A DNA stretch of 33,741 bases from an uncultured SAR86 cluster bacterium (GTDB lineage Bacteria > Pseudomonadota > Gammaproteobacteria > Magnimaribacterales > Magnimaribacteraceae): positions 67,839-101,579 of the forward strand of contig CACDOC010000001.1 of assembly GCA_902554355.1 (NCBI GenBank), in the 5' to 3' direction. Positions 23,331-29,140 of this stretch are shown here, piece after piece (within the stretch, counting starts at the first letter, position 1; each line of letters begins with the position of its first letter). Made by a program: the position numbers and the translations under genes. The notes under the pieces were generated by a model. It searched no databases and was not told the DNA's origin. It was given only the letters and a program-made list of their open reading frames with translations.

Positions 23331-26010
<2,680 letters not shown>

Positions 26011-26661
26011 CTAACCGGTGCTTACCATAAATTGTCTTTTGTATTCAATGACTTGTTGTCTCATATGCTCAATCATTTGTTTAGTAAGCAGATTCCTGTC
26101 TTCATCTAGAACTTCGCATTCGAAGTATTCTTTTAAAAATTGAGAAACCTCAATTAATTGTTCAAACGATTCTAATGGACTTGAAAGATTAACAGGATCT
26201 AATACAAGAGCTACATCATCGGAAGTAGTGTCTTCTAAAAACGTTCCAGGTTTCTTGCCGTTCAAGAGACTAAAAGATATATTTCCTTTTGCGTCTAATA
26301 AAGTAAATAGACCTTTTTCTTCATAGACGAAATCAAATTTACCTAAAGCTTCTGAAATAGATTGCATAGAAAATTGATCTTTTTTTAGACTACCTAAATG
26401 TAAAATAAGAAGAGAGTTTGATGGTTGGATATCTAAAGGTGAATCTTCTATCGGTTCTTCAAAATTTTCATTAGAGGGTTCATCACTAAAACCCTGCATC
26501 CATTCTTCTTCAAAATCTTTGCCCATGTACTCATCAACATCGATGAGATCTACTTTTAAAGAGTCTCTTTTTATTCTAACGGCCCTTCTAATACCATCTA
26601 TAAATACCAAAGCTAAAAGAGCTCCTATAACTAAGGTTAATATTTCAGGCAAATTAAACAT
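26011..26661 (-). CDS. zipA: Cell division protein ZipA
   Basis: ZipA tethers FtsZ to the inner membrane in gammaproteobacterial division. The 216-residue protein starts with a membrane segment (about 4-23, PEILTLVIGALLALVFIDGI), followed by a basic patch (RRAVRIKRD), a short acidic linker (about 35-80) and a C-terminal FtsZ-binding domain (about 83-216) with SLLILHLGSL, ISFSLLNGKKPGTF and LDEDRNLLTKQMIEHMRQQV, the usual ending. The linker is much shorter than in E. coli ZipA (328 residues). The ATG at 26661 is one base after the smc stop; an upstream ATG in the smc 3' end gives a non-membrane N-terminus and was not chosen. Confidence 0.92.
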   Translation of the reverse strand: MFNLPEILTLVIGALLALVFIDGIRRAVRIKRDSLKVDLIDVDEYMGKDFEEEWMQGFSDEPSNENFEEPIEDSPLDIQPSNSLLILHLGSLKKDQFSMQSISEALGKFDFVYEEKGLFTLLDAKGNISFSLLNGKKPGTFLEDTTSDDVALVLDPVNLSSPLESFEQLIEVSQFLKEYFECEVLDEDRNLLTKQMIEHMRQQVIEYKRQFMVSTG

Positions 26662-26662
26662 T

Positions 26663-29140
26663 TCAACTAGCTGCCAGTTCCACAGCTTGATCGACATCGA
26701 CTGCAACCATTCTAGATACTCCCGGCTCTTGCATGGTTACGCCCATTAGATGTTTACTCTTTTCCATAGAAATTTTGTTATGAGATATATATACAAACTG
26801 AACTCGTTGAGACATATCTTCAACTAAGTCTATAAAACGCATAGTATTCAGATCATCTAACGGAGCATCTACTTCATCCAACATACAGAAGGGAGCGGGG
26901 TTTAGTTCAAAGAAAGCAAAAACAGTTGCTATAGCAGTTAAGGCTTTCTCTCCACCTGATAACTGAGAGACGCTTGCATTTTTCTTTCCAGGAGGTCTAG
27001 CAGAGATACCAACACCACAACTTAACAAATCATCCCCCAACATAACAAACTCGGCATGCCCTCCTCCAAAAAGCTTTGGGAAAGAATTTGCTAGGCTTAA
27101 ATTCAACTTATCAAAAGTATCTTTAAATGTTGTTCTGGTTTCCTTATCGATCTTATTAATAGCATTTTGAAGGGTTTCAAGAGCATCCATTAATTCTTGA
27201 TGTTGACTATCAAGTAACTCTTTCCTCTTTTCTTCTTGTTCAAATTCTTCCATAGCAGCTAGGTTAATTGCTCCTAATCTTGAAATTTTGTTTTCAATTG
27301 ATTCTAGATCTGTTGCGAGATCTTCTGAAGACTTCGATTCATCCAATTCATTTAAAAGACTATTTAAATCTCCATCTAAATCTTTTATTTGCCCGACTAA
27401 ATTATCTCCTTCTATAGTAGATGCTTGCTTTTCTAATCTAAAATTTTCCAAAGCTTCTCGTAGGCTAATTGCAAGTTGTTCCTTTTCTATCTTCTCTCTT
27501 TCAATCTTGTGTATAGACTCATTACACTCTTCTATTGCTTTCCTAGACTCTAGTAATTTATTTTCTACAATTAATCTTTGTGATAATAGTTCTTCTAAAT
27601 TAGTTTGTATTTCTGAAATAGGGTTATTTAATTGCTGAGACTCATTTACTAAAGTTAAATTCTCTGACTCAAGGTCCTTTAGCTTTGTATTTGCATGTTT
27701 ATCTTCTGATGTTAATGAAGCAAATTTAGCTTGAAGGTCAGCAAATTTATTAGTCTTATCAATTAAATTAATCCTTTGTTGTTTGGCATCCTCAGAAGAG
27801 TTAGATAAGAAATCTTGGGTTAATTTAGTTAATTTACTTGGCTCTTCTTTTAAAAGTTCAATCTCACTCTTTAGTTCAAGAACTTCTGACTCAAGTTCTT
27901 TAATGGTTCCAAGAGAGATCTTTTTATTTAAACTCTCTACGAGTGATCCTATATTTCTTTCTAGTTTGGAGATAATCAATTTTGATTGCGTAATAAATGC
28001 CAACCAAGAACTTTCAATTTTTTCAGATTCTTCTAAATTTAATTCGTCTCCTTTTCCTTCTTTAATTTTCTGCAACTCTGAATCAATTGAATCAATATTT
28101 GATTTAACATGTTCTTTGGATTTATTTAATGCTTGCAACTCTTCTTTTCTTGAGTCTATTTGCATGCTATTTGTGTTTAATTTTTCTTCGATCTCCCTAA
28201 CTCTTTCCTTTTTTAAGGCAAGTTCTTGCTCTACACGCGAAATGTCAGCACCAAAGCTATAAAATTCTTGCTGCACCTTATCCATTTCGGATTGCAATTC
28301 AATCTGCTGAGCTCTAAGTTCAATCACTTCGCTATCAGAAGTATTTTTAGCAGAATTTATCTCCTCAACCTTTAATTCTTGGTCTTTTACTTCCTTCTCT
28401 TTTGCTTTAACGATCTTAGAAATATCAAGCCATTTAGAAGCGAGAAGAAATTGTTTTGCTTTATTTTCATCTTTTCTTAGTTGCGAATATTTTTCAGCAG
28501 CTTTAGCCTGCCTCTGCAACTTATGCAAAAGCCTAGATATCTCTTCTCTTAAGTCTTCTAACCTGGATAGATTTTCTCTGGTTCTCTTTATTCTTGATTC
28601 TGTTTCCTTTTTTCTTTCTAAATATCTCGAAATACCTGCAACCTCTTCTATGTAACCACGCATTTCATCTGGCTTAGCACTGACCAGTTGTGAAATCATT
28701 CCTTGTTCAATAATTGCATAAGATCTAGGGCCAAGACCTGTACCCAAAAAAACATCAGTAACGTCTCTTTTTCTGCAACTGGTTCCATTCAAGTAATAAT
28801 TAGATTGTCCATCCAACTCGATGCTTCGTCTTACTGATATTTCATTATAACTAGAAAACTCTCCCCCTATTCTTCCATCTTTATTATCGAAGAACAGTTC
28901 TACCGAGGCCTTAGATACTGGTTTTCTTGAAGAAGATCCATTGAAAACTACATCTGACATTGAATCGCTTCTTAAATTTTTTGCAGAACTTTCTCCTAAG
29001 ACCCATCTAACTGCATCTATAACATTTGATTTTCCACACCCATTAGGGCCGACTATACAAGACATTGAGGAGGGGAAAGTTACTGTTGTTGGATCAACAA
29101 AAGATTTAAAACCAGACAGCTTTATAGAGTTTAATCTCAT
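26663..29140 (-). CDS. smc: SMC chromosome-segregation ATPase, short form lacking a recognisable hinge
   Basis: The two half-heads are intact. N-terminal: Walker A GPNGCGKSNVIDAVRW (31-46), IEQGMISQLVSAKPDEMRGYIEEVAGISRY. C-terminal: RLGAINLAAMEEFEQ, IDKETRTTF, LFGGGHAEF, signature LSGGEKALTAIATVF (727-741), Walker B FCMLDEVDAPLDDLN (751-765) and YISHNK. The protein has 825 residues; SMC is normally about 1,150-1,200. The arms (about 172-360 and 500-690) are predicted coiled coil, and the middle (360-500) is also helical and charged with few Gly. No glycine-rich hinge fold and no CxxC zinc hook is seen. Reading frame and flanking genes are intact. smc-zipA-ligA is the usual gammaproteobacterial order. 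The first gene after the ccm cluster; 110-bp spacer upstream. Confidence 0.93.
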   Translation of the reverse strand: MRLNSIKLSGFKSFVDPTTVTFPSSMSCIVGPNGCGKSNVIDAVRWVLGESSAKNLRSDSMSDVVFNGSSSRKPVSKASVELFFDNKDGRIGGEFSSYNEISVRRSIELDGQSNYYLNGTSCRKRDVTDVFLGTGLGPRSYAIIEQGMISQLVSAKPDEMRGYIEEVAGISRYLERKKETESRIKRTRENLSRLEDLREEISRLLHKLQRQAKAAEKYSQLRKDENKAKQFLLASKWLDISKIVKAKEKEVKDQELKVEEINSAKNTSDSEVIELRAQQIELQSEMDKVQQEFYSFGADISRVEQELALKKERVREIEEKLNTNSMQIDSRKEELQALNKSKEHVKSNIDSIDSELQKIKEGKGDELNLEESEKIESSWLAFITQSKLIISKLERNIGSLVESLNKKISLGTIKELESEVLELKSEIELLKEEPSKLTKLTQDFLSNSSEDAKQQRINLIDKTNKFADLQAKFASLTSEDKHANTKLKDLESENLTLVNESQQLNNPISEIQTNLEELLSQRLIVENKLLESRKAIEECNESIHKIEREKIEKEQLAISLREALENFRLEKQASTIEGDNLVGQIKDLDGDLNSLLNELDESKSSEDLATDLESIENKISRLGAINLAAMEEFEQEEKRKELLDSQHQELMDALETLQNAINKIDKETRTTFKDTFDKLNLSLANSFPKLFGGGHAEFVMLGDDLLSCGVGISARPPGKKNASVSQLSGGEKALTAIATVFAFFELNPAPFCMLDEVDAPLDDLNTMRFIDLVEDMSQRVQFVYISHNKISMEKSKHLMGVTMQEPGVSRMVAVDVDQAVELAAS

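Follow-up and report, generated by a model that had tools for sequence, protein, structure and literature searches.

A hinge-less SMC ATPase conserved across the SAR86 order

SMC proteins are usually defined by the hinge, the domain through which they dimerise, and its purpose is an open question. The window analysed here, a stretch of 33,741 nucleotides from an uncultured SAR86 cluster bacterium, encodes an SMC for which an initial annotation reported both ATPase half-heads but no hinge. This raises the question of whether such a short gene is real, how widely it is shared, and what could hold two copies of its product together. The features of the locus are as follows.

26663..29140, minus strand: smc, hinge-less SMC ATPase of 825 aa in an open frame; TIGR02168 score 810.5 bits against a cut-off of 567
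29024..29050, minus strand: Walker A GPNGCGKSN, residues 31-39, read from the sequence; residues 30-39 are invariant in 52 SAR86 SMCs
28061..28630, minus strand: N-terminal coiled-coil strand, residues 171-360, predicted by AF2 as a continuous helix
27794..28060, minus strand: predicted apex standing where hinge and distal arms would be expected, residues 361-449, from AF2 models of the whole protein and of a fragment
27278..27793, minus strand: C-terminal coiled-coil strand predicted by AF2, residues 450-621, interrupted at 588-604
26945..26962, minus strand: ABC signature LSGGEK, residues 727-732, invariant in 52 SAR86 sequences
26867..26887, minus strand: Walker B region CMLDEVD, residues 752-758, from the sequence and the alignment of 52 SAR86 SMCs
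26011..26706, minus strand: zipA, the next gene and a syntenic neighbour; Pfam ZipA_C 1.3e-18
23929..25998, minus strand: ligA, NAD-dependent DNA ligase, a syntenic neighbour; Pfam DNA_ligase_aden 6.1e-92

The smc frame starts with ATG and contains no internal stops, in accordance with the initial reading of a continuous frame. The ATPase motifs are intact as well and match those of bacterial SMC (Walker A GPNGCGKSN, signature LSGGEKAL, Walker B CMLDEVDAPLDD). The protein is recognised by the NCBIfam model TIGR02168 (SMC_prok_B), with the match split into two pieces. Rad50 models of the same collection stayed below their cut-offs, and of the 32 NCBIfam matches the 25 best-scoring ones included no RecN model. 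Pfam matched SMC_N but gave no match to PF06470, SMC_hinge. Since the hinge dimerisation domain is absent, we regard the protein as an SMC by descent with a non-canonical architecture.

Downstream of smc lie zipA and ligA, and upstream the ccm cytochrome-c genes. The order smc-zipA-ligA is the usual one in gammaproteobacteria, which argues that the gene is a native orthologue and not an import. Gene order and the N-terminal part of the protein, which is 54% identical to a gammaproteobacterial SMC, both point to a gammaproteobacterial SMC. In the tree of head sequences the SAR86 SMCs form one clade next to the gammaproteobacterial SMCs (actinobacterial SMCs were absent from all trees), and a profile search of the source genome returned one SMC match. 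The SAR86 protein is the orthologous, single housekeeping SMC. The zipA frame as called mechanically begins with TTG at 26706 and shares 44 bases with the end of smc (window 26663-26706); its true start probably lies further downstream.

The genes scpA, for the kleisin, and scpB, for the kite protein, had been noted as missing from the window. They are indeed located outside it, adjacent to each other on contig C4 of the same genome. An NAD synthetase gene lies on one side and a pseudouridine synthase gene follows scpB on the other, with a short-chain dehydrogenase gene in the same neighbourhood. ScpA was found in 92 of 101 genomes and ScpB likewise in 92 of 101, the source genome included; among genomes at least 90% complete the counts are 38/39 for each. 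Head, signature motifs, head-near arms, genome context and ScpA/ScpB are common to the SAR86 system and bacterial SMC-ScpAB.

The difference lies in the middle of the protein. We aligned it with 20 hinge-bearing gammaproteobacterial SMCs of 1163-1193 aa. Its residues 1-~355 and ~507-825 find their counterparts in canonical residues 1-~355 and ~853-1171, while the ~500 canonical residues between them (~356-852), which comprise the distal arms and the hinge, are represented by ~150 aa, so that the SAR86 SMC has shorter arms and no hinge. A hinge HMM built from the same 20 proteins recovered 12 of 12 held-out gammaproteobacterial SMCs (E<=4e-18). Among 85 distinct SAR86 SMCs its best E was 0.42, with 77 of the 85 reported at all, and residues 360-500 of the protein gave no match. 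A CxxC zinc hook, the absence of which had also been noted, occurs in none of the 85 and is rejected. The partial proteins L083 and L084 were excluded from this set and from the alignments.

PF06470 matched none of 203 SAR86-order genomes and 285 of 369 genomes in a draw from the class that includes 4 SAR86 genomes. Many hinges of full-length gamma- and alphaproteobacterial SMCs escape this profile, and many of the 80 non-SAR86 genomes of the class draw without a match have full-length frames (1127-1264 aa). Surveys based on PF06470 only will therefore overstate hinge loss, and we base the absence of the hinge on lengths, alignment and hinge HMM. As alphaproteobacterial hinges receive weak scores from PF06470, a survey of the phylum with this profile (121/398) is not informative. 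We could reject a split gene that supplies the hinge separately, as a hinge match was found nowhere in the source genome by a whole-genome profile search and PF06470 matched 0/203 genomes of the order. A hinge remnant in the apex was rejected too: when the canonical hinge was compared by hhalign with five profiles of the apex (f1, f2, f3, f4 and f2long), the matches spanned 1-18 columns at E 0.4-0.91.

The source genome is 1.17 Mb in 61 contigs and 51% complete, which could suggest that an assembly gap or a pseudogene accounts for the short frame, with about 1 kb missing from the assembly. This explanation is refuted and its probability negligible. A protein search finds a relative in 56 of 61 related genomes, the named relatives being SAR86 cluster bacteria. 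The same length class recurs in dozens of assemblies made independently from single cells or metagenomes, and the complete chromosome L091 (CP097968) carries the short form as well. None of the frames listed for the order is longer than 1010 aa. The gene is moreover under purifying selection: in five congeners dN/dS was 0-0.06 in the heads, 0.03-0.11 in the arms and 0.07-0.24 in the apex, with two arm values not computable due to saturation. These values by region show that the whole SMC is under selection, the apex least strictly.

TIGR02168 matched 193 of 203 genomes of the order, 178 strongly and 15 weakly (best E weaker than 1e-20). The short form is shared by the related genomes, and the 85 distinct proteins fall into length classes of 727-736, 809-810, 821-827 and 995 aa. 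Each of the 825, 810 and 995 classes is a single group in the head tree, where the 995 class is nested within the 730 class. The heads are nearly invariant across SAR86. We conclude that the hinge-less SMC is conserved order-wide in SAR86. One SMC frame of the order (G134:C2:296008-297363) contains a single internal TGA, which is either a sequencing error or the mark of a broken copy.

What replaces the hinge was described initially as charged helical sequence only. This holds in that there is no hinge; the predicted structure is not a plain coil, and AF2 places breaks and three short helices in it. In the whole-protein model (52 sequences; pLDDT 74, pTM 0.36), in which the head is poorly modelled (pLDDT 39-62 around the ATP site), the N-terminal strand is a single helix over residues 171-360 and the C-terminal strand runs from 450. 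The predicted apex consists of helices 366-405, 410-430 and 433-445, bounded by breaks at 361-365 and 446-449. The apex fragment modelled alone (22 sequences; pLDDT 81.5, pTM 0.51) reproduced the hairpin, but unlike in the whole-protein model its third helix is fused with the C-terminal strand (433-479).

Conservation of the apex varies between families. In family f2 the apex blocks (2.9-3.5 bits) exceed the flanking coil (2.6-2.9 bits). In f1 no part of the protein is less constrained than the apex (1.9-2.5 bits), and the very tip is lowest at 1.9. Residue W379 is the same in all f1 apex rows (22 of 22). Homology of the apex between the four SAR86 families is not convincing, the best hhalign result being E 0.0037 with a probability of 8.9. 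Comparisons with the PDB found no known apex fold beyond an antiparallel coiled coil: Foldseek returned generic antiparallel coiled coils only (best E 0.077), and the VIA Z of ~11 is of a size common for helical models. The only Pfam match of the apex fragment was Rab11-FIP3, which fell below its cut-off and was taken as coiled-coil noise.

One clade has changed its arms further. All four 995-aa SMCs tested (L098, L099, L100 and L102) equal the 732-aa form plus tandem duplications of 120 residues in the N-terminal strand and 143 residues in the C-terminal strand, located within residues 225-480 and 515-802 of the protein. The sum of the two, 263 residues, equals the difference between 995 and 732. 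The copies are 39-60% identical, and the short-form control L103 gave no duplication signal (best score 18 as compared to 109 and 128). Judged from these sequences, the 995-aa arms are re-lengthened from a short ancestor. Since both strands of the antiparallel coil were lengthened, selection on arm length is suggested. INLAA motifs occur at 652 and 795, and the second of them suggests that the head-proximal joint region may have been copied. Burmann reported SMC arm-length modes of 163, 238 and 341 aa (PMC5344682); as described there the survey located hinges first, so hinge-less SMCs could hardly appear in it. The strand of P0001 measures ~235 residues to the tip, near the 238 mode. We do not claim quantised arm lengths for SAR86, as the other length classes do not fit the modes by our own estimate.

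The loss had been proposed to be either a lineage-specific reduction or an unusual adaptation. It does cover the whole SAR86 order, with PF06470 in 0/203 genomes, yet it is not confined to that lineage. Two gammaproteobacterial families with genomes of 1.0-1.1 Mb, f145 (G343, G455, G550) and f42 (G240, G486), carry SMC frames of 930-950 aa (L181-L185) in which the profile match skips the hinge; the hinge HMM gave a best E of 1.3 on these five proteins, with four of them reported at all. In an alphaproteobacterial draw of 210 genomes we found family f277 (G966, G1083; 0.8-1.0 Mb) with SMCs of 820 and 806 aa (L236, L237), for which the hinge HMM gave E 2.1 and 3.5, as compared to 2e-6 for the alphaproteobacterial control G998. 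The 987-aa SMC of another alphaproteobacterium, G1105 (L238), keeps its hinge (1.4e-7) on much shorter arms. The SMC of G998 (L239), from the same genus, has 1165 aa, so in G1105 the arms were shortened without loss of the hinge.

A single clade of f277 and SAR86 SMCs was rejected (p-AU 0.0123), which indicates that the hinge was lost at least twice within the lineages tested, and perhaps more often. Within the gammaproteobacteria the RpoB tree, from which the very long branch of G205 was dropped and for which the G285 frame was chosen by similarity, places SAR86 beside the hinge-bearing G564 and G209 (SH-aLRT 98), whereas f42/f145 group elsewhere together with families that have a hinge (95-96). 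The groups for the AU tests were named after the trees had been seen. A single hinge-less gammaproteobacterial clade was at most weakly rejected with RpoB (lnL 41.9 lower, p 0.10) and was not rejected with SMC heads (AU p 0.565), where the tree holding these SMCs together was 4.7 lnL better than the free search result. One tree used 18 SAR86 rows and did not contain L031, L035 and L049. Separate losses among the gammaproteobacteria are favoured, not proven, and other bacteria with tiny genomes appear to have lost the hinge separately from SAR86. Small genome size alone does not cause the loss, because hinge-bearing SMCs occur in genomes of 1.0 Mb, e.g., G514 and G374. G514 has two full rpoB matches on different contigs and is possibly a mixed bin.

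Our literature search, which left subscription papers and bioRxiv preprints largely outside, found no paper on hinge loss in the SAR86 SMC. The trait itself is not wholly new in print, as hinge-less SMCs without CxxC have been published for marine Actinobacteria, with speculation on their function (Sussfeld et al., 2025; PMC12153180). Like the SAR86 protein, these lack hinge and CxxC and belong to abundant marine bacteria without a second SMC. Their authors place them in Actinobacteria. The main text of that paper mentions neither SAR86 nor ScpA, names gammaproteobacteria only as users of MukBEF, and as presented includes no kleisin partners or apex analysis. Its retrieval as described required 80% mutual coverage with the seeds, which SMCs of 730-825 aa may fail.

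Engineered proteins offer a second comparison. In the core-only Wadjet JetC described by Liu et al. (2025; PMC12647877) the segment from elbow to hinge is replaced by a short linker; the complex keeps loop extrusion and loses obstacle bypass. JetC is engineered and held by a disulfide at the elbow, and it belongs to Wadjet and not to ScpAB. The SAR86 SMC likewise keeps heads, joint-side arms and kleisin partners while hinge and periphery are gone. According to the same report, SMCs without a hinge channel tend towards longer arms. The short SAR86 arms run opposite to this trend and to the idea of compensation by arm length, except in the clade with duplicated arms. RecN, which as described dimerises through three apical helices (PMC4255302), has a short antiparallel arm without a hinge, as does the SAR86 SMC, in which three apical helices are predicted. 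RecN acts in repair without known accessory proteins, whereas the SAR86 protein is an SMC_prok_B orthologue with ScpAB. Rad50/SbcC also combines an SMC-like arm with the lack of an SMC hinge, but CxxC occurs in 0/85 SAR86 SMCs.

We think it somewhat likely that the SAR86 SMC is a natural 'core-only' SMC-ScpAB motor without a hinge gate that dimerises by other means, perhaps via its apical helices. The hinge and hinge-proximal arms would have disappeared no later than the base of the order, so that an ATPase head remains with a shortened antiparallel arm ending in a small helical tip. Most likely the protein would still serve, together with ScpA and ScpB, as a motor of the condensin type, in which ATP would engage two heads, ScpA would bridge them, and the arms would open and close. 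At the top the subunits would probably be held by the apical helices, as in RecN, and by arm-to-arm rod contacts. With the hinge toroid absent, the gate for obstacle passage would be gone and obstacle bypass presumably lost with it, which a small chromosome may be the reason that SAR86 tolerates. The case for an apical interface is weakened by the f1 apex, where bits and the highest dN/dS mark the least constrained part of the protein; this is weak for a vital interface. The unconvincing homology of the apex between families, its resemblance to any antiparallel coiled coil and the poor AF2 model of the head speak against this reading as well.

The same features could be read as an SMC that does not dimerise at its apex at all, with two open-topped arms kept together only through ScpA/ScpB and ATP at the heads and through weak side-by-side contacts of the arms, forming a clamp and not a ring. 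A tip that is a simple helical turn of low conservation in f1 would fit such a clamp, and arm contacts are described as probably contributing to dimerisation of hinge-less B. subtilis Smc (PMC5526789). We nevertheless find it rather unlikely, as core-only Wadjet is reported to need a closed ring for loop extrusion (PMC12647877) and in f2 conservation of the apex exceeds that of the neighbouring coil. If a closed ring is required, as it seems to be, and the apex by itself looks plain, a further partner protein might bridge both apices in place of the hinge. There is no extra gene near smc (ccm, zipA, ligA) or near scpAB, and streamlined genomes would hardly add a subunit, which makes such a partner very unlikely.

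The SMC might also be degenerate and on its way out, kept for head-kleisin DNA binding without loop extrusion. Hinge loss in small-genome lineages, shortened arms and the low constraint on the apex agree with this, but heads that are nearly invariant (dN/dS 0-0.06), the retention of ScpAB and a clade that re-lengthened both arm strands, which suggests that arm length matters, leave decay improbable.

A wider form of the core-only reading is that streamlined bacteria repeatedly converted SMC-ScpAB to a natural core-only loop extruder, in which the hinge gate and with it hinge-based obstacle bypass would be absent and a newly built apical helical module and arm contacts would zip the two subunits. 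We hold this only tentatively. It would apply to SAR86, to the published marine actinobacteria, to one or more alphaproteobacterial families and probably to further gammaproteobacterial families.

In SAR86 the main chromosome-organising motor protein lacks the hinge that normally joins two copies. Engineering has provided precedents in that the hinge can be swapped, as in the B. subtilis SMC chimera where a Rad50 zinc hook reportedly substitutes for it (PMC5344682), or removed with loop extrusion kept, as in the Wadjet core. An abundant ocean order without a hinge but with ScpAB and intact heads is a natural test of these claims. Since SAR86 and apparently other small-genome lineages have lost the hinge, such a test of its purpose is available in nature, and its recurrence in other small genomes permits a comparative one. 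If the repeated core-only reading were true, the hinge would be no part of the motor but an accessory that small chromosomes with few obstacles can do without.
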